DNA of 64,000 nucleotides from Botryococcus braunii. Its lineage: Eukaryota; Chlorophyta; Trebouxiophyceae. The notes below the pieces were generated by a model. That model was given only the letters and a program-made list of their open reading frames with translations, was not told where the DNA came from and did not search any database. Both the position numbers and the translations under genes were made by a program. Shown here one piece after another: positions 9,813 to 63,023 of this stretch (positions within the stretch are counted from its first letter, which is position 1; every line of letters begins with the position of its first letter). The stretch is from the NCBI GenBank assembly GCA_002005505.1, contig KV908534.1:169934-233933 (forward strand). Direction: 5' to 3'.

Positions 9813-10540
9813 TGTTATAATAGTGAAAGAACATTTAGTGACTTTCCCTCAGAAGAGTAATAGTGGCCAGGCTTCTCTAAAGCAATCACTGTGAACAATC
9901 TTAGAGGTTGAGTAAGGGATGGCAGAACTCTAGAATTCTGCCATAATTGATCTGGACTGATTCCATTTCGGAGAAAGAGAGTAATGCAATCTGACGCGTT
10001 CTTGCGAGAAAGGATATAGGCAGCAGGCATGAAGGGCTCGGTACTTGTTTGGGACTGAAAGAGCACTCCGGGTGCTTATCTCTGATCAGTTGCCACAAGT
10101 ATCAACACATAGTCGGGCTCTGCTTGCTCTCCTACACACAGCAAGAGACCCGACCGAGCTTAACACCCTTCGTGCCGGGACATACAGGTGGAGTGCTGCA
10201 ACTTAGTGTAACTTGCATGAACAATTGATTAGGAAGAGGTCTAGATAAGCGTATTAGAATGTTGCTAATGCTTGGCTCATCGAACAATGGTAATGCGAAC
10301 TATCTGTCGATGCGTAGAAGAGGTAGTTTGAATTCCTTGGCGTTGAGAGAGAGCAAGAAGCAATGTAATGACTTGTTTGGGACTGAAAGAGCACTCCGGG
10401 TGCTTATCTCTGATCAGTTGCCACAAGTATCAACACATAGTCGGGCTCTGCTTGCTCTCCTACACACAGCAAGAGACCCGACCGAGCTTAACACCCTTCG
10501 TGCCGGGACATACAGGGAACATTACGCCCAGAATTGTACA
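9813..10540 (+). repeat. Solo Copia LTR Y (728 bp)
   Basis: A TG...CA LTR with perfect TSD ACTTC on both sides and no internal region, so a product of LTR-LTR recombination. It is related to the Copia Z LTR. Internal structure: TATA-like box at 10015, X1 10043-10187 ending CAG|GT, TGTAA at 10364-10368, X2 10371-10515 ending CAG|G, then a 25 bp U5. X1 and X2 are 145 bp near-identical direct repeats. A CTTAAC branch-point-like motif lies upstream of the X2 end. Confidence 0.93.
10188..10515 (+). other. Candidate LTR intron in Y
   Basis: 328 bp from GT (after X1) to AG (end of X2). It contains the second X copy and TGTAA. Splice use is inferred from sequence only. Confidence 0.6.
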
Positions 10541-27246: not shown

Positions 27247-27945
27247 TGTAAGAGGTTATGGGCAGTGGCGTATCCTGAACGCAAGCAGACAGGTCGTAAG
27301 TTCGTGCCTCTCCAGCTACAGTCCTCTACGACTGTCTGCTCTTTAGACACATGCAACTGCATGAACAAGACTGGCATCCTTATGTGCCCAGTATCTTTCA
27401 AACCAGTTCCGTTACACGTTGATCTGTCAATGAGCATCTACACACGGATAAGCTCCTGACGGCTGAAAGCAAGTACCTTCCTATACTCAATCAAGACTCC
27501 GTCCCTTAGCTGTTTGGGAGACTTGATTGTACACTAAGATGGTTCACTTACAAACAAGCAATCAAACATGAACACATTACCAATACACACCCTGCGTCAC
27601 CGCACCTGTAAGCAAGCAGACAGGTCGTAAGTTCGTGCCTCTCCGGCTACAGTCCTCGACGACTGTCTGCTCTTTAGACACAAGCAACTGCATGAACAAG
27701 ACTGGCATCCTTATGTGCCCAGTATCTTTCCAAACCAGTTGCTCGACTATGCGGTGATCGCAGCTTTAATAGTCCTTTCACACTGACGCGTAATCTAGAT
27801 CAGATTGTACGTTATGTTTGAAATCGACCACAACCTAACGTGTCTTAAGGTACCTTATGTTCTCAATGGACCCATATCCTAATAGTGCACACCTGAAGAT
27901 CACTTAAAGCACAAGGCATTCAATAATAATATTCAGAACTCAACA
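27247..27945 (-). repeat. 3' LTR of Copia D (699 bp)
   Basis: The minus strand begins TGTTGAGTTC next to the polypurine tract and ends CTCTTACA. Inside, on the minus strand: TATTAAAG from 27771, X1 27740-27606 ending ACAG|GT, TGTAA at 27416-27412, X2 27408-27275 ending CAG|G, U5 27274-27247. A CTTAC branch-like motif and a pyrimidine-rich tract precede each X end. U5 contains GCCCATAACC (27263-27254), complementary to the primer site. Confidence 0.93.
27275..27605 (-). other. Candidate LTR intron in D 3' LTR
   Basis: 331 bp, GT at 27605-27604 to AG at 27276-27275 on the minus strand. The donor GTGCGG is weak, but the acceptor has a good pyrimidine tract. Confidence 0.58.
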
Positions 27946-28362: not shown

Positions 28363-29115
28363 TGTTACATTTTGTGACATATAGTGAGATTGCCTTCCTC
28401 TTGAACAGACATGAACTCTTAAAAGGAACTGATAAACATTGGCATGAACAAAGGCATACATGAGACGCTTATCACAAAGAAGTGTATTTGAGCACAAGGT
28501 CATGTTATGAATAGTGTCGTACGGTATTCGCACGTGGTTGCCAGATCAACGCGTGATCTTGCAACGCTGGTATTTGAAAGGAAAGCAGCGGAGTTGAATG
28601 TCACTTGCCTAGCACTATCAATGATTGATGCATGTGTGAAGACAGCAAGTGTTTTGCTTATGGCGTAAGGCCGTCACACGGACTGCCTAGCCAACTAAGA
28701 CAACTGATCACTCGCTCTGCTCGTGCTTGCAGGCAAGGCCGATTGGCCTAGTTAGACATGTTAAGACATGCATGGACAAGTTACTTGCTTACTATAATTT
28801 AATTGTTGAATATCCGTATCTTCATCGGTTGTGGGTGTCATACCTATGAGTGAAGATCAGGGAGACAAGTGTCATGCAAGATATTTGTTAGCGTATGCAA
28901 GGATTTATGTTATGGAGGCTCAATTGCGTTAGCATAAGAAGACTCTAAATGTAACCACTTGCCTAGCACTATCAATGATTGATGCATGTGTGAAGACAGC
29001 AAGTGTTTTGCTTATGGCGTAAGGCCGTCACACGGACTGCCTAGCCAACTAAGACAACTGATCACTCGCTCTGCTCGTGATTGCAGGTCTTCACACCCAT
29101 AACCTAAATATAAGA
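28363..29115 (+). repeat. 5' LTR of Copia F (753 bp)
   Basis: Starts TGTTACATTTTG and ends ATAAGA before the primer site; the end is set by the TSD and could shift by one base. Inside: TATTTGAAAG at 28571, X1 28602-28732 ending CAG|GC, TGTAA at 28950-28954, X2 28956-29086 ending CAG|G. U5 holds CCCATAACC (29096-29104), which can pair with GGTTATGGG in the primer site. Confidence 0.92.
28733..29086 (+). other. Candidate LTR intron in F 5' LTR
   Basis: 354 bp. The donor reads CAG|GCAAGG, a GC donor in strong context, while the 3' LTR has CAG|GTAAGG. The acceptor is pyrimidine-rich and ends TTGCAG. Confidence 0.6.
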
Positions 29116-29129
29116 GGTTATGGGCCCAC
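29116..29129 (+). other. Copia F half-tRNA primer site
   Basis: GGTTATGGGCCCAC is complementary to the anticodon arm of initiator tRNA-Met (GTGGGCCCATAACC), not to a tRNA 3' end. Confidence 0.8.
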
Positions 29130-33432: not shown

Positions 33433-34185
33433 TGTTACATTTTGTGACATATAGTGAGATTGCCTTCCTCTTGAACAGACATGAACTCTTAAAAGGAACT
33501 GATAAACATTGGCATGAACAAAGGCATACATGAGACGCTTATCACAAAGAAGTGTAATTGAGCACAAGGTCATGTTATGAATAGTGTCGTACGGTATTCG
33601 CACTTGGTTGCCAGATCAACGCGTGATCTTGCAACGCTGGTATTTGAAAGGCAAGCAGCGGAGTTGAATGTCACTTGCCTAGCACTATCAATGATTGATG
33701 CATGTGTGAAGAATGCAAGTGTTTTGCTTATGGCGTAAGGCCGTCACACGGACTGCCTAGCCAACTAAGACAACTGATCACTCGCTCTGCTCGTGCTTGC
33801 AGGTAAGGCCGATTGGCCTAGTTAGACATGTTAAGACATGCATGGACAAGTTACTTGCTTACTATAACTTAATTGTTGAATATCTGTATCTTCATCGGTT
33901 GTGGGTGTCATACCTATGAGTGAAGATCAGGGAGACAAGTGTCATTCAAGATATTTGTTAGCGTATGCAAGGATTTATGTTATGGAGGCTCAATTGCGTT
34001 AGCATAAGAAGACTCTAAATGTAACCACTTGCCTAGCACTATCAATGATTGATGCATGTGTGAAGACAGCAAGTGTTTTGCTTATGGCGTAAGGCCGTCA
34101 CACGGACTGCCTAGCCAACTAAGACAACTGATCACTCGCTCTGCTCGTGCTTGCAGGTCTTCACACCCATAACCTAAATACAAGA
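33433..34185 (+). repeat. 3' LTR of Copia F (753 bp)
   Basis: Same length as the 5' LTR. X1 33672-33802 ending CAG|GTAAGG, X2 34026-34156 ending CAG|G, with TGTAA just before X2. The right edge is set by the CTGAT duplication. Confidence 0.92.
33803..34156 (+). other. Candidate LTR intron in F 3' LTR
   Basis: 354 bp with a consensus GTAAGG donor and a pyrimidine-rich acceptor. This is the strongest splice-site pair of the set. Confidence 0.62.
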
Positions 34186-35478: not shown

Positions 35479-36542
35479 TGTTGTGATAATCTAATTGCAG
35501 ATGAGACCCTAATTGTCATTATCCAATAAATTGACATGTGACTTTGGGGACAAGGATCATTGAACAAAGTATCTAGGCCATGCCGACCTCATCTGCCACG
35601 TGGTTTGTACTTACTGAGCAATGCGAGATACGTACCTGCTGTTTATTTGTAATCTTCAAGAGTGTCTATGTACTCTTTAAGAGTGTCTGCGGGTGCTCAG
35701 ACAGTTTCTAAGGCATTCCATGCGTGAATACTTGTATAGAAGCTGTTTGGACGCTGATCTTGGTGTTCTCTCATGAACTCCAGTATGACCTTATCATTTG
35801 TCTAGTCTTATGATGAAATGCTGAGGCCTGGAATTGACTAAGCACTTAGATCTTGGCAATTCATAAGCCTCAATGTGTTGTGCCACTTCTGGAAGTCAAC
35901 TAGCACCTCCAGGAGATAGAAATATGAGTGGGCAAACCCAAGGGGTAACCGAAAGGTTGACCGTATGCATTCACGGTCCTTTCCCCTTGATTAGCCATTT
36001 AGTAGCCAGCACCGACGATCGTGACTAGAAACATGAGTGTTCTGGTCCGAATCAGGACCCGGATGTTCGGACTTACAAATTCGAACACGAAGTCCGGTGT
36101 ATTGTACACCATGTACAAGGTAGACGTACTTGGGCTGACTCGGGTACGGCTACGTAGCTTGTCATGGTATTTAAGAGGGCCAGTCTCTTGAAGTCAACAG
36201 TTCGTTGGCTTTCTATATGACCACGGCTCACGTCTTGTTGTTATGTGCCTTCAATAAGGCTTGTTTGAAGTCCTGGTGTCGGTGCGCATGCAGGTAATCA
36301 CCTTCATTATAGCTTGCTTAGCTATAGGCTACAATTACAAGACACACACATTGTAACAAAGTTCGTTGGCTTTCTATATGACCACGGCTCACGTCTTGTT
36401 GTTATGTGCCTTCAATAAGGCTTGTTTGAAGTCCTGGTGTCCGTGCGCATGCAGGCATTATCCTTACTGACGATGGTGTTCCGTCAGCAAGGTTTGAAGT
36501 AATTGTTGAAGTAATTGTTTATTTCATGTTGTTTTATCTACA
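35479..36542 (+). repeat. 5' LTR of Copia E (1064 bp)
   Basis: Starts TGTTGTGATAAT and ends TCTACA. Inside: TATTTAAG at 36168, X1 36200-36293 ending CAG|GTAATC, TGTAA at 36352-36356, X2 36361-36454 ending CAG|G, then an 88 bp U5. X copies are 94 bp and identical except one base. Confidence 0.94.
36294..36454 (+). other. Candidate LTR intron in E 5' LTR
   Basis: 161 bp, GTAATC donor to ATGCAG acceptor. The pyrimidine tract is weaker than in D or F. Confidence 0.55.
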
Positions 36543-41100: not shown

Positions 41101-42184
41101 AGCACCAAAAGCATGGTATGACACTATGTCTAAAGTTTTGCTCGATGATGGCTTTGTCATTGCTGATTCTGACCCCTCCCTATTCATAGCAAGAAAATTG
41201 GGAGATGATGATGTTTATGTGCTCGTCTATGTTGATGACATTCTTGTCGCTTCCAAGAACATGGACAAAGTCACTGCTGTCAAAGCCTTGCTCAATGCAC
41301 ACTTTGCTGTGAAAGACTTAGGTCCTGCTAAGTGTTTTCTCGGCATGAGCGTAACGCAAAGTTTTGACAACAATGGTGTGTTGCAGTCAATCAAATTGTC
41401 AAACGAAAAGTTGACTGCAGAAATAATAACCAGCTTTCATGGTGAAGAAAGCTTAAAACCCAAAGCCCTACCTATGGACACAGCATTTCAGTTATCTGCA
41501 CATGTTGGTGATCCTCTTCCAGTTGGGAATAGGTACAGAGAGCTGGTGGGTGGGATAATGTATTTGGCAAATACCGTTAGGCCAGATATTGCTTTTGCTG
41601 CCAACCACCTTGCTAGGTTTGCCGTCAGCCCTACAAGTCATCATTACAGGGCTGGCATCTCTGTGCTGAAATACCTGCTCGGCTCCAAGGATTTTGGGCT
41701 GTTGTGGGATAAAGGGAAGAATGGGATAACCGGCTTTGTCGATAGTGATTATGCAGGAGAAGTCGATGGCAGAAGGTCCACTTCTGGCCATGTCTTTCTC
41801 AGTGGTACGGCTGCCATCTTATGGGGGAGTAAGCTGCAAAAGGTCACAGCCCTCTCTACAGTGGAGGCAGAGTTTGTCTCCATGTGCAGCAGAGTACAGG
41901 AAGCCCTGTGGATCTCCAAGCTCGTGTCAGATTTTGGGGGAGTTCCAGCGCCAATCAGGATCTACACCGACAATACGGGAGCGCTGGCCAACATCAAGGG
42001 CATTCCGATCTCGCCGCGCACGAAGCACATCGGGGTCAGATACCACAGAATCAGGCAGGAAGTGGAGCAAGGATCAATCAGCCCCTTCTATGTGGAGTCT
42101 GCATCAAATCTGGCGGACATGTTCACCAAAGCGTTGCCTAAAGTGCAATTCCAGAAATTGAGGGCTGGGATTGGGATGGAGTAA
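38003..42184 (+). CDS. pol: Copia E gag C-terminus and pol polyprotein
   Basis: Open for 1393 codons, the useful part starting near 38,083. It contains the rest of the gag domain, zinc knuckle CFLCGEAGHIRTYC (about residue 206), protease LVDSGATDHICSD (246), GAG-pre-integrase LWHRRFGHLS, and integrase with catalytic residues in HMDVMGP, RTDGGTEFLG and NGKVERLNRTL. An acidic linker follows, then RT (LDISTAFLHGKLQETVYVQQ, LNKALYGLKQAPKAWY, YVDDILVASK near 1076) and RNase H (VDSDYAGEVDGRRSTSG, TALSTVEAEFVSM). All motifs are intact, so pol is probably functional. Confidence 0.94.
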   Translation: MGSPNSTHWFTHRAVPNWEVSDQKSAYGIWSCLINIFTVRGRGLVMALFQELHTLKMNPGEKPSLYVSRARKLVMSLRSFGQNYTDLALCYVILAGLTPEYEQDKNTQFNLVQDNPDIGRLQGNLELTFIRLRAAKGHTPKATTAEVPKLHRNFNPHPQGNRPQFTRTSTSLNVVEGAVEADTAVVKEAVQGGRAAVQTPGRPVPICFLCGEAGHIRTYCPKNKSQANVVQTHEFGATPPLPGWLVDSGATDHICSDMSCMEDYVAYTDPQYVTVANGRKEHILGEGTVTVHLENGSTMQLFNVKHVPSTQKRLFSVGKAYRDGLFVSLNGLTCIIKDSEGTPIVAAYHAHPYWWLIDKSIPAKRVTFANPVEHTQPEANPLASMSVDLWHRRFGHLSPAMLSKIRKTSCVQGVVLPAGNLTSLIGMNGMCEACIDGKMSSAPHKPTGSTVSNRMELVHMDVMGPIRPVTPEGEEYALNIIDERSDFSVTVLLKKKSDASSEAILVLKTLSLSTELPVKAIRTDGGTEFLGLDRFCRKHGILHQVTPPYSHQSNGKVERLNRTLQEKARAMLADSELPRKYWGEAVLTACHVRNLSPTNLHDKTPYELMYGVVPNVSYLRVFGSKCKVLTPKTLRTGKFHPVCQTGVFLGYQGDSKQYRVLIDGKVTVHRGADCKCFEVAPDTQISAAQPYGAVNHRTHASSDLDFTYGVSSPLSAMEEEEDFEPESDDEPDLEYVPDVSDMEFSGNRSAVADAWDGEVDQQDTFPNEARGEQKGGAGHGDHLIPSRSTSPPGARPLPKGVSQVSTHNSVEGEVSGSRTEKVVEFDFSGSKIPVTPAGLFAGRYPVRKRYTHTTQAHFADTSVQGVIQIEANTVYAEPNTYLEAINSPEAEKWITAMLEEMGSLNALETWDLVQVSEQQAKRALPVRWVFKVKLTESGDVEKFKARLVAKGFKQVYGVDYTEVYAPVSRHSTLRYLLSMAVEQQMHLHQLDISTAFLHGKLQETVYVQQPPGFYEGGPNTVCKLNKALYGLKQAPKAWYDTMSKVLLDDGFVIADSDPSLFIARKLGDDDVYVLVYVDDILVASKNMDKVTAVKALLNAHFAVKDLGPAKCFLGMSVTQSFDNNGVLQSIKLSNEKLTAEIITSFHGEESLKPKALPMDTAFQLSAHVGDPLPVGNRYRELVGGIMYLANTVRPDIAFAANHLARFAVSPTSHHYRAGISVLKYLLGSKDFGLLWDKGKNGITGFVDSDYAGEVDGRRSTSGHVFLSGTAAILWGSKLQKVTALSTVEAEFVSMCSRVQEALWISKLVSDFGGVPAPIRIYTDNTGALANIKGIPISPRTKHIGVRYHRIRQEVEQGSISPFYVESASNLADMFTKALPKVQFQKLRAGIGME

Positions 42185-42186
42185 TT

Positions 42187-42565
42187 CATGGATGTCAGGC
42201 TGCTACTTGATTGCCTTGCGTATCATAGAGCTTCTCCACCATAAACCCACAGGGTGGGAGTGGCTTCGCACCCAAAGGGGGAAGTCTCTGGTGGCTGGAT
42301 AGCAGGGTGGTGGAACGACACGGCGTAGAAGACCGTGCCACCGTGTAGCTCCCTGACAGACGTACTGAAACATTGTCCGATGACATAATGCATGCATGTC
42401 AAGCTGCTACTTGATTGCCTTGCGTATCATAGAGCTTCTCCACCATAAACCCACAGGGTGGGAGTGGCTTCGCACCCAAAGGGGGAAGTCTCTGGTGGCA
42501 GGATAGCAGGGTGGTGGAACGACACGGCGTAGAAGACCGTGCCACCGTGTAGCTCCTTGACACAA
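42187..42565 (+). repeat. Tandem repeat in Copia E 3' UTR
   Basis: Two copies (from 42187 and 42391, period 204 bp) of a segment running from CATGNATGTC to GTAGCTCC. Each contains a GGGTGGGAGTGGCTTCGCACCC-like hairpin and GGTGG/CCACC complementary stretches, which suggests structured RNA. It lies between pol and the polypurine tract (42593-42602). Confidence 0.8.
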
Positions 42566-42602
42566 GTCTACATGAATATTGTCCCCTTCAGTCATGGGGG
42601 AG

Positions 42603-43666
42603 TGTTGTGATAATCTAATTGCAGATGAGACCCTAATTGTCATTATCCAATAAATTGACATGTGACTTTGGGGACAAGGATCATTGAACAAAGTATCTAG
42701 GCCATGCCGACCTCATCTGCCACGTGGTTTGTACTTACTGAGCAATGCGAGATACGTACCTGCTGTTTATTTGTAATCTTCAAGAGTGTCTATGTACTCT
42801 TTAAGAGTGTCTGCGGGTGCTCAGACAGTTTCTAAGGCATTCCATGCGTGAATACTTGTATAGAAGCTGTTTGGACGCTGATCTTGGTGTTCTCTCATGA
42901 ACTCCAGTATGACCTTATCATTTGTCTAGTCTTATGATGAAATGCTGAGGCCTGGAATTGACTAAGCACTTAGATCTTGGCAATTCATAAGCCTCAATGT
43001 GTTGTGCCACTTCTGGAAGTCAACTAGCACCTCCAGGAGATAGAAATATGAGTGGGCAAACCCAAGGGGTAACCGAAAGGTTGACCGTATGCATTCACGG
43101 TCCTTTCCCCTTGATTAGCCATTTAGTAGCCAGCACCGACGATCGTGACTAGAAACATGAGTGTTCTGGTCCGAATCAGGACCCGGATGTTCGGACTTAC
43201 AAATTCGAACACGAAGTCCGGTGTATTGTACACCATGTACAAGGTAGACGTACTTGGGCTGACTCGGGTACGGCTACGTAGCTTGTCATGGTATTTAAGA
43301 GGGCCAGTCTCTTGAAGTCAACAGTTCGTTGGCTTTCTATATGACCACGGCTCACGTCTTGTTGTTATGTGCCTTCAATAAGGCTTGTTTGAAGTCCTGG
43401 TGTCGGTGCGCATGCAGGTAATCACCTTCATTATAGCTTGCTTAGCTATAGGCTACAATTACAAGACACACACATTGTAACAAAGTTCGTTGGCTTTCTA
43501 TATGACCACGGCTCACGTCTTGTTGTTATGTGCCTTCAATAAGGCTTGTTTGAAGTCCTGGTGTCGGTGCGCATGCAGGCATTATCCTTACTGACGATGG
43601 TGTTCCGTCAGCAAGGTTTGAAGTAATTGTTGAAGTAATTGTTTATTTCATGTTGTTTTATCTACA
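42603..43666 (+). repeat. 3' LTR of Copia E (1064 bp)
   Basis: Same length as the 5' copy. X1 43324-43417, candidate intron 43418-43578, X2 43485-43578. The preceding polypurine tract is CATGGGGGAG. The right edge is set by TTGGT. Confidence 0.94.
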
Positions 43667-43692: not shown

Positions 43693-44415
43693 TGTTATAT
43701 TTTAGAAGAAAGATATGTGCCTTTCCCTCAGGAGAGTAATAGTGGCCAGATCAGCTCTGATCAGGTGGCGGGAACAATCCTAGAGTGAGTAATAGGTGGC
43801 AGAACTTAGCAGTTCTGCCAGGACCAATCTTGACCAATTTCGTTCGTTTCGAGAGAATGAGGTAATCAGACGCGGTTTGCTAGGAAGGATATATGTCGCT
43901 GGCACGAAAGGGCGAGTCACTTGATTGGGACTATAAAAGCACTTCGGGTGTTTGTCTCTTAACTGTTGCCAGTCAAGTCGTCTCACACAGTCGTCACTGC
44001 TTGTTTCTCGACACACAACAAGAGTGCCGCCAGACTAAACACCCTCGTGCCGGGTCATACAGGTAAACTGATGTCATAGCATTAAATCCACAAGAACAAT
44101 GGATTAGGAAAAGGTCTAGATAATGTGTATTAGGAGAGTGCTAATGTTTTAGCTCATCGGACACTGGTAATACAGACTATCGGTAGTTACGTAGATGGAG
44201 TAGTTTGAATTACTGAGTGATGAGAGAGAACAATAAGCATTGTAAGACTTGATTGGGACTATAAAAGCACTTCGGGTGTTTGTCTCTTAACTGTTGCCAG
44301 TCAAGTCATCTCACACAGTCGTCACTGCTTGTTTCTCGGCACACAACAAGAGTGCCGCCGGACTAAACACCCTCGTGCCGGGTCATACAGGAAACGCCAA
44401 GCTCAGAAGTTCACA
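43693..44415 (+). repeat. 5' LTR of Copia Z (723 bp)
   Basis: Starts TGTTATATTTTAG and ends AGTTCACA. Inside: TATAT at 43890, X1 43919-44062 ending CAG|GTAAAC, TGTAA at 44241-44245, X2 44247-44390 ending CAG|G, 25 bp U5. A CTAAAC branch-like motif lies about 27 nt upstream of each X end. X also holds TATAAAAG near 43932, not conserved in related LTRs. Confidence 0.95.
44063..44390 (+). other. Candidate LTR intron in Z 5' LTR
   Basis: 328 bp, GTAAAC donor to ATACAG acceptor. It contains all of X2. Confidence 0.6.
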
Positions 44416-46397: not shown

Positions 46398-46848
46398 TTT
46401 AACGAAGTGAGACGTGTAACTAAGATTTATAACAAGCTAAGCAAGGGTATCAGGCAAGGGTGACACCGAAGGCAGAAATCGAAGTTCCAATCCGTTACAA
46501 GTTCGCAGCCCTCCTCACGCAGGTCGTCCGAGTCTCCAAAGAACAATATATAATGAACAATGTAGAGAATGCTAGATGTCTCACTCGTAGCAGCAAACCC
46601 CAAAGACAATGATAACCACCCGAGTTCCTAGTCCACCTATGCGCGGATCCCGCTACGTCGTCCCTCTACGAGATGCTCTCGCGAGCATAACGATATGGAT
46701 GACAAGAGGAGACCCACTAGGATATTACAGTCATTTTCCTACACACAAGGACAACGAGATCTACTCGTATCCCAAAGGGCACGAAGAAACATGAACTACG
46801 CGCACATCCTACGTGAGACGCGTCGCGCTGACGCGGCACCTCACTACA
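46398..46848 (-). repeat. 3' LTR of Gypsy C (451 bp)
   Basis: The minus strand begins TGTAGTGAGGTG and ends CGTTAAA, so it has TG...AA ends rather than TG...CA. Limits are fixed by the TSD and the 5' copy. Confidence 0.93.
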
Positions 46849-47403
46849 TACTCCCCCCCTTATTCCTGTGCGTCCCCGCGCAGAAGGCAGAGCGCAACAA
46901 CAAACAGACAAGACAAACAAAGGAACAAGACCTTCCAACATGCGGAGACTCAGACTTAGACCTACGGGCAACCCGCCTCCCGTGTTGCCAGACCCCAGCC
47001 GAATGCTGCGTATCGGGGTCCCCACCATAATGCAAGAAGAACAAGGATCAGGCATGACTAACAGAACAAAAGACAAAACACTGAAAGAAAAACGAAAGTC
47101 CACATGATGAACAGCCAAAATGAGACACAAGGGCAGAGCTAAAAGTCCAGATGTCCAAAAGTCCAGAGTCCAAGGGGAGTCCGATTTCCACATATAGTCC
47201 ATTATTACGCCAGTATTGCACCATATTGATCAGGTGTGGTAGTGAAGTGAAAAGGCCATACACCTAATGTGCACAAAAATCTATCCAGGTAAGGGACCCA
47301 TGGTCAACCCTACCGGGTAAGGCAGCCTTACCCTAGCCTATCCAAAGTCCATATGGCCATACAGAGAGACCCCTCCAAGGAGGGCCAACCGGTCGACGGG
47401 ACC
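46849..47403 (-). other. Gypsy C polypurine tract and 3' UTR
   Basis: TACTCCCCCCCTT next to the LTR is the complement of the polypurine tract. The rest is a non-coding 3' UTR shared with Gypsy B and I. Confidence 0.8.
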
Positions 47404-50400
47404 TTAAGGGTGGACCCTAGGAGTCGTGCCCTTGGGAGGCAATGGCGGGAGCCCGTGACTCTCTCTGTATTCTTCCACTTTCTTGTGGCAACGCGTGAAA
47501 TGGTTGAGTGGCTCCCAACTGTCCTCGCTGGGATCGTGGCCCTTCCAGCGGACGAGATACTGCAGATGAGGGGACCCGTCCGGGTCGTACAGAGCACGGC
47601 CGCGGTCATCGGTGCGCGGCTTGTGATCCAGAATGGTCTCAACCTCATACTCAATGTGATTGTTGACGAGGTGCGGGGGCGGCGGCGGCGTGCGCACGCG
47701 GGCGCCCTCTGCAGTGCGGTAGAGGGTGAGGAAATTCACATTGACTACGGGGTGGTAGTGGTCGTAGCCGTCGGGGAAGTCCAGACGGTAAGCATTGGGA
47801 CCGGGAGAGTCAAGGACCTTGAAGGGCCCCACGCGGCGAGGCGCAAACTTGTGTGGAAGTTTGCGGTGCACTGCAAAGAAGTCCCGGTCCACCAGCACGA
47901 AGTCACCGGTGGCGAAGGTGACATTGCTACGGCGCCTATTCGCATAGGCGGCCTGACGGTCTTGGGCTGCAGCCAAAAACTTTTGTGCCCGTCGGATGTC
48001 TGAGCCCATCTTCCGCACAAAGTCATCCGCATTCCCAATTCCAGTTTTGCCCAAGTGGCCATTCGCAAACGGCACGTTTGGATCTTGGCCATACGTGAGC
48101 CGAAAGGGTGTGGTGTTTATTGAGGTTTGCCATGCGTTGTTATATGCGAATTCTGCTTCAGGCAAGTAACTATCCCAGTCCTTCCCATGATCCGCCACAT
48201 AGTGTTTCAGATAATCTCCCAAGATGCGGTTTGTCCTTTCGGTTTGACCATCCGTTTGAGGATGGAAGGCAGTTGAAAGGGCAGGTCGACATCCCGTAAG
48301 TTCATGTAATGCCTTCATAAACTTACTCACAAAGCGGGGATCCCGATCAGAAACAATTTCCTCCGGATACCCATGATACATCCACACCCGTGTCCTTAGC
48401 AATTGTGCTACAGTATAAGCATCAGCATTCATGGTTGTAGCAGCAAAATGAGCACACTTGCTAAGCCTATCCACAACAACCCAAATCGCATCATGTCCAC
48501 TTGGGGTCTTTGGGAGGTTAGTAATAAAGTCCATAGACACACTTTGCCACTTCCTTGCTGGTATTTGTAAGGGGTGAAGAAGACCAGCAGGAAAAGTATT
48601 CCGAGCCTTGACTCGTTGACAAGAGTCACAATGAGCAACATAGGCTTTGACATCCTCATACATTCCCGGCCAATACCATTCCCTTGTTACAAGCTCGTAC
48701 ATGCGAGTTACTCCAGGGTGACCAACATGAGGTGGATCATGTAAAGCTTCCAAAATTCCACGTCGTAGGTTCTCCACGACAAGTTCCCCATCTTTCCTTT
48801 CCTCAAACAATGCAGGAACATATTTCCGTCCATTCCTCTCCCAAAAGCCTCCCTTTAGACTAACCTTCCTTCTATTCGCACGCGCTGCCAACCACGGATC
48901 GTATGTGTAAGCCTTCTCAAGTTTGCCAAGTAGGGATTCGTACCCATCGGTCTCGCGGGTAAGCTCACTCGGGCTGGCCAACCCGATTTGCTCCATTGTG
49001 CCGAGGGAGCTTGGGGTCTCGTGAGCGGGCCCCGGGAGCGTGACCTTGGGGACCTTGCGGACCCGAGCTGTGAGGGTACCCTCGACATCCCGGCTGGAGG
49101 GGGTGAGGGAGTCCGGACTGGTGCGCCGACGCTTGCGCTGGAGGGCAGCCCCGGCCACAGCAGCCCCATTGTCCCTCCCCCCAGGTCCAGGGTGTTGAGT
49201 GAAGTGACACCTGGAGAGCGGATCCGCAATGTTGGTCTTGCCCGGTTCCCATACCCATTCAATCTCAAACTCCTGCAGGCGCTCGGCCCACCGAGCCCTC
49301 CGAGGACTAAGCCCCACCTGTTGACCCAAAAAGGTGTTGCACTTGTGATCCGTCACCACCGTTACTGGCTTACCTAACAAATAACATCTCCATTCCGTGA
49401 GAGCATACACTACAGCCAATAACTCCCGTTCCGTGGCACTGTAGTTCCTCTCGCTTGCTCCCAACTTTTTACTGAAATACGCACAAACCTTCCCATCTTG
49501 AAATAGCACAGCTCCCACGCCGTAATCGCATGCATCGCACACTACCTTAAATGGCCGACGTACGTCCGGGAGTGTTAAGATAGGGGCACTTACCAAAGCT
49601 TCCTTTATGTTGTCAAATGCTTCCTGTTGTTCCTGTCCCCACTTCCAAGGTGCTTTTGCCCCAGAGAGAGCTGTCAATGGGGTTGCCAGGATACTGTAGT
49701 TCTGAATAAACTTTCGAAAGTAATTAGACAACCCAAGAAACCTCCTAACTTCCGTTACGTTTGTGGGCGTAGGCCACTCCTGCACCACCTTGACTTTATC
49801 CATATCCACTTCCAACCCATTTTCCCCAATGATGTGTCCCAAGTATTTCAATTGTTTCTCAAAGAAAGAGCATTTGACAAGTTTTGCCAGGAGTTGGTGT
49901 TCGCGTAGACGGGTGAAAACTCTGTCCAACTGCAGAAGGTGTTCCTCTTCCGTTTTGCTATAAATGAGCACATCATCCAAGTATACAATCACAAAGCCTT
50001 CCCTTATAAAGTCGTGAAAAACTTCATTCATAAGCCGTTGAAATGTCGCGGGCGCGTTGGTCAAACCAAAGGGAAGTACAAGAAATTCGTACAAGCCAAA
50101 AGGGGTCCTGAAGGCAGTTTTAGGCACATCCTCCTTGCGAAGTCGCACTTGATGGTACCCACACATTAAGTCCAAGCTCGAAAACACCTTGGCTCCCTTA
50201 AGCCTATCCAATAGATCGTCAATTCTGGGGAGAGGGTACCTATCCGAGATGGTAATTTTATTCAGGGGACGGTAGTCTATTACCATACGCAAACTTCCAT
50301 CCTTCTTTCTAACAAACAAAACAGGTGATGCAAATGGTGAGCAACTTGGCCTGATCAATCCCAATTTTAACAACTCATCAACCGTTTTTTCGCATTCCGC

Positions 50401-51591
50401 AAGCTCACTTGGAGCAAGACGGTACGCGGGCCTATTGGGGGGCCGATGTCCTTCTTCCAAATTTATTGTGTGAAACACTTCCCGCTCCGGGGGTAACCCC
50501 GGGAGTTGTTTTGCAAACAAGTCCTCATTTGCAAGTAACAAGTCTTTCAGGGCCTGTGGCTTGCCTTCCAACATGTCATTTATTTGATGAGTGAAAGTCA
50601 TACCGGTACTACTGGGGGGTTTTGTGACGACGGGGGTGTCGTCCATAGATTTGTCGGTGTCCGCCAAGTCGGCCTCACTTGAGGCGTCCTCCCCGGTGAT
50701 GTCCACCAGTTCAGCCTGCTCATTCACAAGCACAGTATACAAACAAACCTTCCAAACATCTTGACCCTTCCATCCTTTTCCATTCCTATCCTTCCTTCCT
50801 TCCTTCCTCTCTTGTGCTTGTAAACCCCAAACAAGTTCTGGCCCCACTGGCAACGATGAATTTGCGTGTTTTAGGGTGACCCACTTCCCATGATGTCTAA
50901 ATTGAGCAGCCTTTACACAAAAATCAATTGAGACTCCTCTTTCTTCCATCCAGTCCTGCCCCAAAATCATGTCTACCCCATCAATCATGGCAGGGCTTAC
51001 AATGAAGTTGTGACGGGAAGTTATACCAGGCTTGAGTGTAAACGACACATCTACCGTTCCTTTCGTATCGGACACACTTCCATCAGCAAGAGTCACGGAT
51101 ATGCATGCGGGTTTGTATCGCACCCCTAGCCCTTGCAAAGTATCACTTTTAATAAACGAATGAGATGCCCCACTATCAAACAACACTGAAAGGATTTTCC
51201 CCTTAACATTCGCCGGAAAGGTCATAGCTAGCGGAGAGTCAGTAGTAACACTTCCCATGGTGAGTGTGGGTCTTGGGGGAACCACACAACATACAAAAGA
51301 GAATGGGTATACACTAGTTTGACCATTCATGTCCACCGCCTGTCCCTTCCTTCCTGAACACACTTCCACAATCCTTCCTTGCATACGGTGAGCATAGAGA
51401 CTCTTAGTTTTCCAAGTTTTCCTTCCCACAATGAAACAACAAGTGAGGGACGGGTTGCACCTTTGTTCCCATAAAAACTTGGAAATCTCAGATTCAGCCT
51501 TCCTAACATTTGGCACCACAAGGTTCACCCCTTCCTTTCCCAAATTGGAGGCCACAAGAGAGTGCAAAACATGCAAGCAAGTGGCATCCAT
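47404..51591 (-). CDS. pol: Gypsy C pol polyprotein with chromodomain
   Basis: Intact, 1395 residues. Protease LFDSGASHSFI near 138; RT FSSLDLMCGYHQVRL, MVIDYRPLNKIT and catalytic YLDDVLIYSK near 535; RNase H CDACDYGVGAVLF and TDHKCN near 749; integrase zinc motif HCDSCQRVK near 990, core VDRLSKCAHF, SDRDPRFVSKF, TDGQTERTNR; GPY region FAPRRVGPFKVL; chromodomain near 1313-1375 (YEVETILDHK, YLVRWKGHDPSEDSWEPL). The ATG lies 11 nt after the gag stop in another frame. The pol frame is open upstream into gag, so -1 frameshifting or reinitiation are both possible. Confidence 0.96.
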   Translation of the reverse strand: MDATCLHVLHSLVASNLGKEGVNLVVPNVRKAESEISKFLWEQRCNPSLTCCFIVGRKTWKTKSLYAHRMQGRIVEVCSGRKGQAVDMNGQTSVYPFSFVCCVVPPRPTLTMGSVTTDSPLAMTFPANVKGKILSVLFDSGASHSFIKSDTLQGLGVRYKPACISVTLADGSVSDTKGTVDVSFTLKPGITSRHNFIVSPAMIDGVDMILGQDWMEERGVSIDFCVKAAQFRHHGKWVTLKHANSSLPVGPELVWGLQAQERKEGRKDRNGKGWKGQDVWKVCLYTVLVNEQAELVDITGEDASSEADLADTDKSMDDTPVVTKPPSSTGMTFTHQINDMLEGKPQALKDLLLANEDLFAKQLPGLPPEREVFHTINLEEGHRPPNRPAYRLAPSELAECEKTVDELLKLGLIRPSCSPFASPVLFVRKKDGSLRMVIDYRPLNKITISDRYPLPRIDDLLDRLKGAKVFSSLDLMCGYHQVRLRKEDVPKTAFRTPFGLYEFLVLPFGLTNAPATFQRLMNEVFHDFIREGFVIVYLDDVLIYSKTEEEHLLQLDRVFTRLREHQLLAKLVKCSFFEKQLKYLGHIIGENGLEVDMDKVKVVQEWPTPTNVTEVRRFLGLSNYFRKFIQNYSILATPLTALSGAKAPWKWGQEQQEAFDNIKEALVSAPILTLPDVRRPFKVVCDACDYGVGAVLFQDGKVCAYFSKKLGASERNYSATERELLAVVYALTEWRCYLLGKPVTVVTDHKCNTFLGQQVGLSPRRARWAERLQEFEIEWVWEPGKTNIADPLSRCHFTQHPGPGGRDNGAAVAGAALQRKRRRTSPDSLTPSSRDVEGTLTARVRKVPKVTLPGPAHETPSSLGTMEQIGLASPSELTRETDGYESLLGKLEKAYTYDPWLAARANRRKVSLKGGFWERNGRKYVPALFEERKDGELVVENLRRGILEALHDPPHVGHPGVTRMYELVTREWYWPGMYEDVKAYVAHCDSCQRVKARNTFPAGLLHPLQIPARKWQSVSMDFITNLPKTPSGHDAIWVVVDRLSKCAHFAATTMNADAYTVAQLLRTRVWMYHGYPEEIVSDRDPRFVSKFMKALHELTGCRPALSTAFHPQTDGQTERTNRILGDYLKHYVADHGKDWDSYLPEAEFAYNNAWQTSINTTPFRLTYGQDPNVPFANGHLGKTGIGNADDFVRKMGSDIRRAQKFLAAAQDRQAAYANRRRSNVTFATGDFVLVDRDFFAVHRKLPHKFAPRRVGPFKVLDSPGPNAYRLDFPDGYDHYHPVVNVNFLTLYRTAEGARVRTPPPPPHLVNNHIEYEVETILDHKPRTDDRGRALYDPDGSPHLQYLVRWKGHDPSEDSWEPLNHFTRCHKKVEEYRESHGLPPLPPKGTTPRVHP

Positions 51592-51602
51592 GGCTTCAGA
51601 AT

Positions 51603-52829
51603 TTACTTTTGAGGATTATGCCCCGGCCCTTTTCCCTTCCAATGTGCTCCCCGGCCACCACGGCCCTTCCACTGCCCACCTCGAGCTTGATTAGAGGGGA
51701 AAGGAGGAGGTGGGGGCAATTGACTGTCGCGCCTGCTCTTCCTTTGCAAGTAGTCCCGCTTGGCCTGACATTGCCATTGCTCGTGACCAAAGTTTTTGCA
51801 GAAATAACACTGGCGCTCGGAGGGGACGCTTGTCCGAGAATCTAACTTTCCACCAACGTTGTGTCCGACGGCTCCAAGCACAGGCCCCTGGGTGAATCCC
51901 GGAAAGTATGCCGGCGTGCTTGTTGGAGTCCTCTTCACAACGTTGAGAACCTTCCTTCCTTCCTGTCCCCTCAGCATCCCCCCTGATTTTAAGTTGCTTT
52001 CATATTGCACCACATAAGTGCACAATGAGGCGAGGCTTGTGAACCTGACACCAGTTTGAGGGTTAACTGTGCAAGCAACTCTAATAGGAGCATTCAGGCC
52101 TTTGAGGAACATATATATTTTATCATTTTCGCAGATGTCATATTCGGTTTCTACATCACTCAACAAGGAGATAAACCTTTCTATGTATCTTTCAACGCTT
52201 TCTTGCCCTTGATAAACATGGTCTAATTTTTGCCGGGCAGCCATAACCAAATCGGTAGAGTCGTATCGATTTCCCATAAAATTTTTAAAGTCTTCCCATG
52301 TTGGCTCTGTTTGACCTCCTTCCCTTTCCTTCCTTTTGAGGTATGTCCCCCACACCTTTGTAGGTCGCTCCTCCATACATTGCAGCGCGACTGCCACCCA
52401 CTTGTCCCTTGACACATTTGAAATGTTCACATATGATTCCACCTTACTAGCAAAGAATTGGAAGCTTCCTCTTTTTCCTGTAAACATGGCTGGTGTAGGC
52501 ACACGCACGACGTTAGTGGTGGATGACGTCCGCTTGGATGCTCGTTCTCCCTCCAAGGCCTCAATCCGCTTCAATAACCGTAGAATTAGGGATTTAGTCT
52601 TATTTTTCTTCAAGGGTGTCTTCAAAGGAGTGGGTTTGGGTTTCGTTTTGGGTGTGGTCGGTTTGGGCGATGGGGCCAGATGCAATTCCGTTTCGGACTC
52701 TTCCAAAAGATCATCGACTTCAATACCTTCCTTTTCCAAACCTTCCAAAATTTCTTTCTCTTTAAGGGGGAGACCGGAGTACTTGTTTCCTTTCCGTTTA
52801 ACCGCCATCATATCAATGGGACAATGCAA
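51603..52829 (-). CDS. gag: Gypsy C gag
   Basis: Intact, 408 residues. Starts MHCPIDMMAV; a Lys-rich segment with a short coiled coil (LLKRIEALEGE), a retrotransposon gag domain (FFASKVESYVNISNVSRDKW, RYIERFISLLSDVETEYD, FLKGLNAPIRV), then zinc knuckle CYFCKNFGHEQWQC (CX2CX4HX4C) and an Arg/Gly-rich tail. It sits directly downstream of the primer site. Confidence 0.93.
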   Translation of the reverse strand: MHCPIDMMAVKRKGNKYSGLPLKEKEILEGLEKEGIEVDDLLEESETELHLAPSPKPTTPKTKPKPTPLKTPLKKNKTKSLILRLLKRIEALEGERASKRTSSTTNVVRVPTPAMFTGKRGSFQFFASKVESYVNISNVSRDKWVAVALQCMEERPTKVWGTYLKRKEREGGQTEPTWEDFKNFMGNRYDSTDLVMAARQKLDHVYQGQESVERYIERFISLLSDVETEYDICENDKIYMFLKGLNAPIRVACTVNPQTGVRFTSLASLCTYVVQYESNLKSGGMLRGQEGRKVLNVVKRTPTSTPAYFPGFTQGPVLGAVGHNVGGKLDSRTSVPSERQCYFCKNFGHEQWQCQAKRDYLQRKSRRDSQLPPPPPFPSNQARGGQWKGRGGRGAHWKGKGPGHNPQK

Positions 52830-52875
52830 TTACAACCTTCCCTACGTCTCCCTTCGGTTCGAGGCTCTAACCGCC

Positions 52876-52887
52876 TCGCCGATACCA
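52876..52887 (-). other. Primer-binding site of Gypsy C
   Basis: TGGTATCGGCGA on the minus strand, one base from the 5' LTR. Confidence 0.88.
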
Positions 52888-52888
52888 A

Positions 52889-53339
52889 TTTAACGAAGTG
52901 AGACGTGTAACTAAGATTTATAACAAGCTAAGCAAGGGTATCAGGCAAGGGTGACACCGAAGGTAGAAATCGAAGTTCCAATCCGTTACAAGTTCGCAGC
53001 CCTCCTCACGCAGGTCGTCCGAGTCTCCAAAGAACAATATATAATGAACAATGTAGAGAATGCTAGATGTCTCACTCGTAGCAGCAAACCCCAAAGACAA
53101 TGATAACCACCCGAGTTCCTAGTCCACCTATGCGCGGATCCCGCTACGTCGTCCCTCTACGAGATGCTCTCGCGAGCATAACGATATGGATGACAAGAGG
53201 AGACCCACTAGGATATTACAGTCATTTTCCTACACACAAGGACAACGAGATCTACTCGTATCCCAAAGGGCACGAAGAAACATGAACTACGCGCACATCC
53301 TACGTGAGACGCGTCGCGCTGACGCGGCACCTCACTACA
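52889..53339 (-). repeat. 5' LTR of Gypsy C (451 bp)
   Basis: Equal in length to the 3' LTR, with one substitution noted. Outer end abuts ATGGG. Confidence 0.93.
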
Positions 53340-57569: not shown

Positions 57570-58292
57570 TGTTATATTTTAGAAGAAAGACATGTGCCTT
57601 TCCCTCAGGAGAGTAATATTGGCCAGATCAGCTCTGATCAGGTGGCGGGAACAATCCTAGAGTGAGTAATAGGTGGCAGAACTTAGCAGTTCTGCCAGGA
57701 CCAATCTTGACCAATTTCGTTCGTTTCGAGAGAATGAGGTAATCAGACGCGGTTTGCTAGGAAGGATATATGTCGCTGGCACGAAAGGGCGAGTCACTTG
57801 ATTGGGACTATAAAAGCACTTCGGGTGTTTGTCTCTTAACTGTTGCCAGTCAAGTCGTCTCACACAGTCGTCACTGCTTGTTTCTCGACACACAACAAGA
57901 GTGCCGCCAGACTAAACACCCTCGTGCCGGGTCATACAGGTAAACTGATGTCATAGCATTAAATCCACAAGAACAATGGATTAGGAAAAGGTCTAGATAA
58001 TGTGTATTAGGAGAGTGCTAATGTTTTAGCTCATCGGACACTGGTAATACGGACTATCGGTAGTTACGTAGATGGAGTAGTTTGAATTACTGAGTGATGA
58101 GAGAGAACAATAAGCATTGTAAGACTTGATTGGGACTATTAAAGCACTTCGGGTGTTTGTCTCTTAACTGTTGCCAGTCAAGTCGTCTCACACAGTCGTC
58201 ACTGCTTGTTTCTCGACACACAACAAGAGTGCCGCCAGACTAAACATCCTCGTGCCGGGTCATACAGGAAACGCCAAGCTCAGAAGTTCACA
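57570..58292 (+). repeat. 3' LTR of Copia Z (723 bp)
   Basis: Same length as the 5' LTR. X1 57796-57939 ending CAG|GT, TGTAA at 58118-58122, X2 58124-58267 ending CAG|G. Ends at ATTTT. Confidence 0.95.
57940..58267 (+). other. Candidate LTR intron in Z 3' LTR
   Basis: 328 bp, the counterpart of 44063-44390 with the same donor and acceptor. Confidence 0.6.
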
Positions 58293-62323: not shown

Positions 62324-63023
62324 TATAAGAGGTTGTGGGCAGTGGCGTATCCTGTAAGCAAGCAGATAGGTCGTAAGTTCGTGCCTCTCTAGCTACAGTC
62401 CTCGACGACTGTCTGCTCTTTAGACACATGCAATTGCATGAACAAGACTGGCATCCTTATGTGCCCAATATCTTTCCAAACCAGTTCCGTTACACGTTGA
62501 TCTGTCAATGAGCATCTACACACGGATATGTTCCTGACGGCTGAAAGCAAGTACCTTCCTATACTCAATCAAGACTCCGTCCCTTAGCTGTTTGGGAGAC
62601 TTGATTGTACACTAAGATGGTTCACTTACAAACAAGCAATCAAACATGAACACATTACCAATACACACCCTGCGTCACCGCACCTGTAAGCAAGCAGACA
62701 GGTCGTAAGTTCGTGTCTCTCCAGCTACAGTCCTCGACGACTGTCTGCTCTTTAGACACATGCAACTGCATGAACAAGACTGGCATCCTTATGTGCCCAG
62801 TATCTTTCCAAACCAGTTGCTCGACTATGCGGTGATCGCAGCTTTAATAGTCCTTTCACACTAACGCGTAATCTAGATCAGATTGTACCTTATGTTCGAA
62901 ATCGGCCACAACCTAACGTGTCTTAAGGTACCTTATGTTCTGAATGGACCCATATCCTAATAGTGCACACCTGAAGATCACTTAAAGCACAAGGCATTCA
63001 ATAATAATGTTCAGAACTCAACA
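62324..63023 (-). repeat. 5' LTR of Copia D (700 bp)
   Basis: On the minus strand: TATTAAAG from 62849, X1 62818-62684 ending ACAG|GT, TGTAA at 62494-62490, X2 62486-62352 ending CAG|G. The pattern matches the 3' LTR. The start TGTTGAGTTC abuts Gypsy G sequence at 63024. Confidence 0.92.
62352..62683 (-). other. Candidate LTR intron in D 5' LTR
   Basis: 332 bp, the counterpart of 27275-27605. Confidence 0.58.

Follow-up and report, generated by a model that had tools for sequence, protein, structure and literature searches.

How can an intron persist in an element that replicates through RNA? Long terminal repeat (LTR) retrotransposons are thought to be obliged to exclude spliced RNA from replication, since their introns would otherwise be lost. 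The question is raised by a stretch of 64,000 nucleotides (nt) from the green alga Botryococcus braunii (assembly GCA_002005505.1, contig KV908534.1, positions 169,934 to 233,933 of the forward strand; hereafter the window), in which Copia elements labelled Y, Z, D, E and F carry LTRs with an internal direct repeat, X. A sequence-only reading of this DNA had noticed that the first copy of the repeat (X1) ends in CAG followed by GT and the second (X2) in CAG before a G and a short U5, and had proposed that X1 is a first exon whose duplicate, X2, came to lie within a spliced intron of the LTR. The analysis presented here points to a relation of another kind between the two copies. Very probably, the leader of the 5' LTR is spliced and the strong-stop complementary DNA (cDNA) of this spliced leader is moved to an unspliced 3' LTR, with X2 and U5 being rewritten in each cycle.

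Layout of the repeat-bearing LTRs

The nine LTRs in which the repeat had been seen were re-read, and all nine share one order of parts: a predicted promoter, X1, a spacer opening with GT, X2 ending in CAG, and a G followed by U5. X1 always ends in CAG followed by GT, the F 5' LTR alone having GC, and X2 always ends in CAG followed by G and the short U5. A scan of the whole window for local direct repeats of at least 50 nt returned 11, nine of which have this X1-spacer-X2 layout.

The Z LTR (43693-44415, forward strand, ending with U5) may serve as the example; the two Z LTRs are 98.9% identical, and a target duplication, a purine tract and a primer site could be read. A TATA-like box at 43889-43896, matching TATAWAW at six of seven positions at -29, is the predicted promoter and lies about 30 nt before X1 (43919-44062), which ends in CAG and is the predicted exon 1. 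Comparison of the repeats places its copy, X2, at 44247-44390, inside a predicted LTR intron (44063-44390) with the splice-type ends GTAAAC...ACAG, for which the terminal CAG of X2 is the predicted acceptor. A signal scan located TGTAA, a chlorophyte poly(A)-type signal (PMC1868727), at 44241-44245, its start 6 nt before X2. U5 (44391-44415) is followed by the primer site GGTTATGGGCCCAC, and the direct-repeat scan of the window gives the span of the second Z LTR as 57796-58267 on the same strand.

X2 as an intron-free copy of the leader

What X2 copies can be seen in families whose leader has more than one exon. The L078 family was assembled from L078 and 18 other scored places, making 19 LTRs. 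Two GT..AG segments of 105 and 109 nt divide the L078 leader into parts A, B and C, and X2 equals these three exons joined, at 289 of 289 nt. Both internal segments are kept in X1 of all 19 LTRs and are absent from X2, and the last acceptor CAG is present in 18 of them. L084 repeats the pattern on a smaller scale, with one internal GT..AG segment in X1 that is missing from X2, and L106, a relative of L084, shows the same two blocks. The GT..AG ends thus match the exon-exon joins of a processed copy, as is expected of spliceosomal introns, both in L084 and throughout the L078 family (19/19). Exons A and B of L078 end in CG and the first exon of L084 in GG; CAG stands at the end of the last exon only, which fits a double role for this CAG, exonic flank of the donor in X1 and predicted acceptor in X2. 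X2 would be an imprint of leader splicing, visible in the DNA in L078 and L084 and inferred in the other families.

The proposal of X1 as exon 1, with X2 lying within a spliced LTR intron, is in this way supported, from DNA alone, by L078 and L084 and by the TATA-like box found about 30 nt before X1 in 10 of 13 representative LTRs. Its corollary of an intron made from a duplicated first exon is too simple: X2 behaves as an intron-free copy of an entire leader of one to three exons, rewritten with each retrotransposition.

Concerted evolution of X1 and X2

The two copies also change together. In 18 of the 19 L078-family LTRs, X2 departs from the X1 exons at 0-5 of about 288 sites. Between distant subfamilies (90 pairs), the difference is 8.3% in X1 and 7.3% in X2. 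At 28 informative sites of this family, X1 and X2 agree in 504 of 532 cells, and 27 of the 28 misses fall in a single LTR, L098. This LTR is a recombinant: its X1 is nearest to L099-L102, with 4 differences, and its X2 is identical to X1 of L093 and L094. Such a mosaic is predicted by strand transfer between the RNAs of two elements. The U5 of L098 starts with GTGCTTAT, as in L093 and L094, that of L099-L102 with GTGGC; because GTGCTTAT occurs also in L078 and L087 of the first lineage, U5 is the weaker evidence for the origin of L098. As a separate observation, two U5 types (GTGCTTAT and GTGGCATA) are found with both leader lineages (L078, L087-L104), which suggests recombination near the end formed by U5 and the primer site.

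In Y, Z, L080 and L083, X1 and X2 are 0-2.1% apart within a copy and 16-42% apart between families, and the spacers of these LTRs can still be aligned, at 23-50% difference. For F, 12 LTR pairs could be compared. Their divergence between X1 and X2 (22/3120, 0.71%, the first base of X excluded) is similar to that between 5' and 3' LTRs over U3 and spacer (42/5100, 0.82%), and F copies are 1.8% apart from one another in X1. No site in E, F or Z shows an X1-X2 difference in at least a third of the copies.

Junction bases and signals

Across 18 F elements, variability over 720 columns peaks (1.88 of 2 bits) at the base preceding the first A of X2, with the base one further upstream in second place; the equivalent sites before X1 are invariant in 18 of 18. 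The junction base is the same in both LTRs of an F element in all 12 pairs, compared with 18% expected by chance. On reaching the end of a template, reverse transcriptases add untemplated bases. Because the junction bases are specific to the insertion, the 5' edge of X2 looks like the end of a strong-stop cDNA, remade each time.

The signals are distributed unequally between the two copies. Among the 13 representative LTRs, the 10 with a TATA-like box match TATAWAW at 5 or more of 7 positions at -29 to -31 of X1, and such a match precedes X2 at the same distance in one (E). TGTAA, in turn, starts 5-8 nt before X2 in 13/13, for a null expectation of 1-3%, and was found near X1 in none of the 13. 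UGUAA is the proposed poly(A) signal of chlorophytes, trebouxiophyceans included, peaking at about -17 from the cleavage site (PMC1868727), and is described as the poly(A) signal in Chlamydomonas (PMC4360255). Given the position of TGTAA, cleavage would fall about 9-12 nt inside X2, which would make for a very short R and leave the last acceptor outside the 3' end of the RNA. An R of 15 nt is described for mouse mammary tumour virus (PMC12789967).

Conservation across copies and families

Copies from the larger families, drawn from the best 40 candidates scored, comprised 30 E, 30 F and 8 Z LTRs. The donor GT is kept in 30/30, 29/30 and 8/8 of these, respectively, and the acceptor CAG in the same numbers (30/30, 29/30 and 8/8); in F, four of 30 depart from CAG in the three bases preceding the donor.

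Beyond the window, sixteen 3' flanks of Copia reverse-transcriptase matches were picked by hand from the 150 best so as to vary in score, and 13 of them show the X1-spacer-X2 layout. It is present as well at both places sampled from the primer-site matches (the first two of 1914), namely L107, a relative of D with a mutated acceptor, and L108, a further family, and one additional family, L053, was found in the flank of an F copy. Altogether, ten families of X that do not cluster by sequence can be distinguished: Y, Z, L080 and L083 as one, D, E, F, L071, L074, L078, L084, L108 and L053. On the sense strand the repeat ends at CAG|GT and CAG|G in all ten, nine by an automatic test and L084 by eye, and on the antisense strand none of the ten passes. 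The repeat ends described by the sequence-only reading were thus confirmed, and had been understated. Its observation that one layout recurs in unrelated X sequences now extends to these ten families, and the search that it had proposed for further Copia LTRs with such ends, run here on a sample, was answered by the 13 flanks and by the difference between the strands.

A probable cycle

Transcription would likely start at the first A of X1, to judge from its position some 30 nt past the TATA-like box. In the leader of the 5' LTR, the last exon is predicted to be spliced from its CAG|GT to the terminal CAG|G of X2, with any internal introns removed too. RNA reading through the 3' LTR would likely end about 9-12 nt into X2, at a point set by TGTAA, and R would consist of those few bases; this copy would keep its last intron because the last acceptor lies beyond its end. 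The minus strong-stop cDNA, made up of U5 and the spliced leader, would then be transferred onto the short R, and as a result U3, X1 and the introns would derive from the 3' end of the RNA, while its spliced 5' end would supply X2 and U5. Each cycle would reset X2 to X1 and retain the intron, and the CAG of the last exon would have two uses, flanking the donor on the exon side in X1 and forming the acceptor in X2.

We lean, with less assurance, towards a broader version, in which the intron renews itself: spliced RNA would be the obligatory template, the end of the last exon would provide the acceptor, and a poly(A) signal held in the intron would let splicing choose the LTR that terminates the RNA, all of this being rebuilt with each jump and common to most Copia families of the genome, each with its own leader.

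Alternative explanations and points against

Several observations weigh against the rewriting of X2 from a spliced leader. The weakest point is the unspliced state of the leader copy in the 3' LTR, above all where the internal introns are complete; in L078 and L084 the 3' LTR, too, has its internal introns in full, and these hence must escape splicing there. RNA splicing of these LTR introns is itself predicted from DNA. The junction varies also in the L078 family, where the bases agree in only 5 of 8 presumed pairs, and among the F pairs the counts of X1-X2 and LTR-LTR differences are weakly correlated (r = 0.33). E and Z are too uniform for a test of resetting, with X1-X2 differences within a copy of 0.59% and 2.0%, respectively, and X1-X1 differences between copies of 0.44% and 2.5%. 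L037, a relative of E, has 10/94 differences between X1 and X2 without an identified donor. As to the signals, the TATA-like box is weaker or displaced in L078 and L080 and lacking in L108, two of the eight Z copies (L005 and L008) have a mutated TGTAA, L063, L097 and L107 have a mutated last acceptor, and a branch-point-like CTNAY precedes the acceptor in 8 of the 13 representative LTRs. Finally, three of the sixteen surveyed flanks (L072, L079 and L081) are without the layout and look truncated or nested; they were considered as counterexamples and rejected, the similarity to known families stopping before or within the LTR.

Could the layout have arisen without splicing? An old duplication of promoter and leader would by itself account for X1, spacer and X2, and gene conversion in DNA or unequal exchange might have kept the two alike, nearby direct repeats being able to convert each other. 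Under conversion, however, the internal segments of L078 would be carried along or lost, yet all 19 LTRs keep them in X1 and lack them in X2. Repeat ends at splice sites in ten of ten families, in the sense orientation only, speak against it as well, as do the insertion-specific bases at the start of X2 but not of X1, and we consider it very improbable. The same low probability attaches to the idea that X2 is an ordinary R beginning at the transcription start, with X1 its upstream copy and the GT..AG segments inserted into X1 later. The succession of X2, U5 and primer site is indeed the usual R-U5 order and the variable bases do mark the start of X2, but the TATA-like boxes precede X1 and TGTAA precedes X2, and no reason is given why X1 should equal X2 while retaining its internal segments. 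Introns can also be gained when a segment with an internal AGGT is duplicated in tandem, and the CAG|GT and CAG|G ends look like those that would result. That model was rejected, with scarcely any probability left to it: the copies are separated by a spacer, identity reaches only 1-3 nt past the cut in 13/13 LTRs, and recurrence in ten families, multi-exon copies and resetting are left unexplained.

A variant of the preferred account, the rewriting of X2 from a spliced leader, deserves more consideration. The strong-stop cDNA of the spliced RNA may always move to the other, unspliced RNA of the particle, so that two forms of RNA would be needed. This would account for the survival of complete internal introns in the 3' LTR, and L098, in which U3 and X1 of one lineage are followed by a 5' leader copy from another, testifies that transfer between RNAs has occurred. 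Yet one recombinant among 19 means that such transfer can happen, not that it must, and splicing confined to the cap-proximal part of one RNA molecule fits as well; the variant is possible, but we hold it doubtful.

The elements of the window

E and F are identified as Copia by their domain order, rve before RVT_2 (455-550 and 908-1145 in E, 271-354 and 915-1159 in F). Domain scans of parts of the other three elements gave gag/Pol_BBD-type domains in Z and D and a piece of RVT_2 in Y. The gag piece of Z matches proteins labelled Botrbrau1, a label that we read as Botryococcus braunii, at up to 91%. Paired LTRs, polypurine tracts and 5-bp target duplications are present in Z (ATTTT), E (TTGGT) and F (CTGAT), and in these three GGGGAAG or GGGGGAG stands immediately upstream of the 3' LTR. 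The LTRs of Z and E have TG..CA ends, and the F end is AAGA. A fixed motif, GTTATGGGCCCAC, follows the LTRs of Z and F and occurs 1914 times in the genome, against once for a reversed control; the motif of E differs. GTTATGGGCCCAC is a putative primer-site motif that may pair with the initiator tRNA. In F (U5 and primer site at 29096-29124), and likewise in L070 and L084, the U5 sequence CCCATAACCT is the reverse complement of the primer-site motif AGGTTATGGG, and a hairpin hiding the primer site could form from this complementarity.

On the forward strand, the Y LTR (10043-10515) has X1 at 10043-10187, a predicted intron at 10188-10515 and X2 at 10371-10515. The E 5' LTR (36199-36454) has X1 at 36199-36293, a predicted intron at 36294-36454 and X2 at 36360-36454, and the E 3' LTR (43323-43578) has them at 43323-43417, 43418-43578 and 43484-43578. 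In F, the 5' LTR (28602-29086) consists of X1 at 28602-28732 and a predicted intron at 28733-29086, with a private GC donor and X2 at 28956-29086; its 3' counterpart (33672-34156) consists of X1 at 33672-33802 and a predicted intron at 33803-34156, with a GT donor and X2 at 34026-34156. The D LTRs lie on the minus strand, one at 27275-27740 (X1 27740-27606, predicted intron 27605-27275, X2 27408-27275) and the second at 62352-62818 (X1 62818-62684, predicted intron 62683-62352, X2 62486-62352).

A Gypsy element (46398-53339; RVT_1 and a chromodomain), lying antisense between the two Z LTRs, has its own 451-bp LTRs, 99.8% identical, and its insertion largely accounts for the 13.9 kb length of Z. 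The window scan found no X-type repeat in this Gypsy element, a single case. Between the end of the E pol frame and its 3' LTR stands a tandem doublet of about 200 nt (42182-42584), and similar doublets stand beside other E copies. Across contigs, many E LTRs share 99-100% identity, which points to recent jumping of the family. Three D-type LTRs at G000:C468:33609, 37087 and 40565 are equally spaced at 3478 bp, which suggests a tandem segmental duplication, and a D-type copy at L107 86-335 has an additional tandem repeat of a 125-nt piece of U3.

Comparison with known systems and significance

Other LTR retrotransposons with a functional intron are BARE1 and EVADE, which are Copia elements of plants with alternative splicing, and Ogre (PMC3735527, PMC12786077). 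The introns of BARE1 (junctions CAG/GTAT and CAG/GA) and EVADE lie at the gag/protease part and yield a subgenomic Gag RNA. Those predicted here differ from this type of subgenomic splicing, as they precede the primer site and their intron-free copies sit in the LTRs. The BARE paper holds that spliced RNA must stay out of reverse transcription (PMC3735527), whereas the spliced leader here seems to be the template. Retroviruses such as human immunodeficiency virus type 1 and foamy viruses likewise have a splice donor in the leader and, with poly(A) signals in both LTRs, must disregard the 5' signal and obey the 3' one, but their spliced RNAs are not described as genome in PMC12789967. Penelope-like elements retain introns too; these are non-LTR elements, and PMC3846280 ascribes retention to an antisense template and not to exon rewriting.

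The literature searched, outside which most subscription papers lie, held no description of an intron kept inside an LTR by exon rewriting. We know of no retrovirus that has an intron wholly within its LTR and rewrites the spliced exon downstream of it. In split-intron retroviral vectors, strand transfer places splice sites in the new LTR; these are engineered constructs and are not known to carry a self-renewing exon copy. A vector named LTR1 was dropped as a precedent, LTR1 being merely its name.

Lying upstream of the primer site, the predicted introns seem to have been retained over many replications, and would be kept because the cDNA made from the spliced leader is placed behind the intron rather than replacing it. 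If this is true, a single design would solve two long-standing problems, the retention of leader introns in an LTR element and the use of a poly(A) signal in its 3' copy but not in its 5' copy, and genomic DNA would then show where these elements start transcription, where they are spliced and where strand transfer has joined them.
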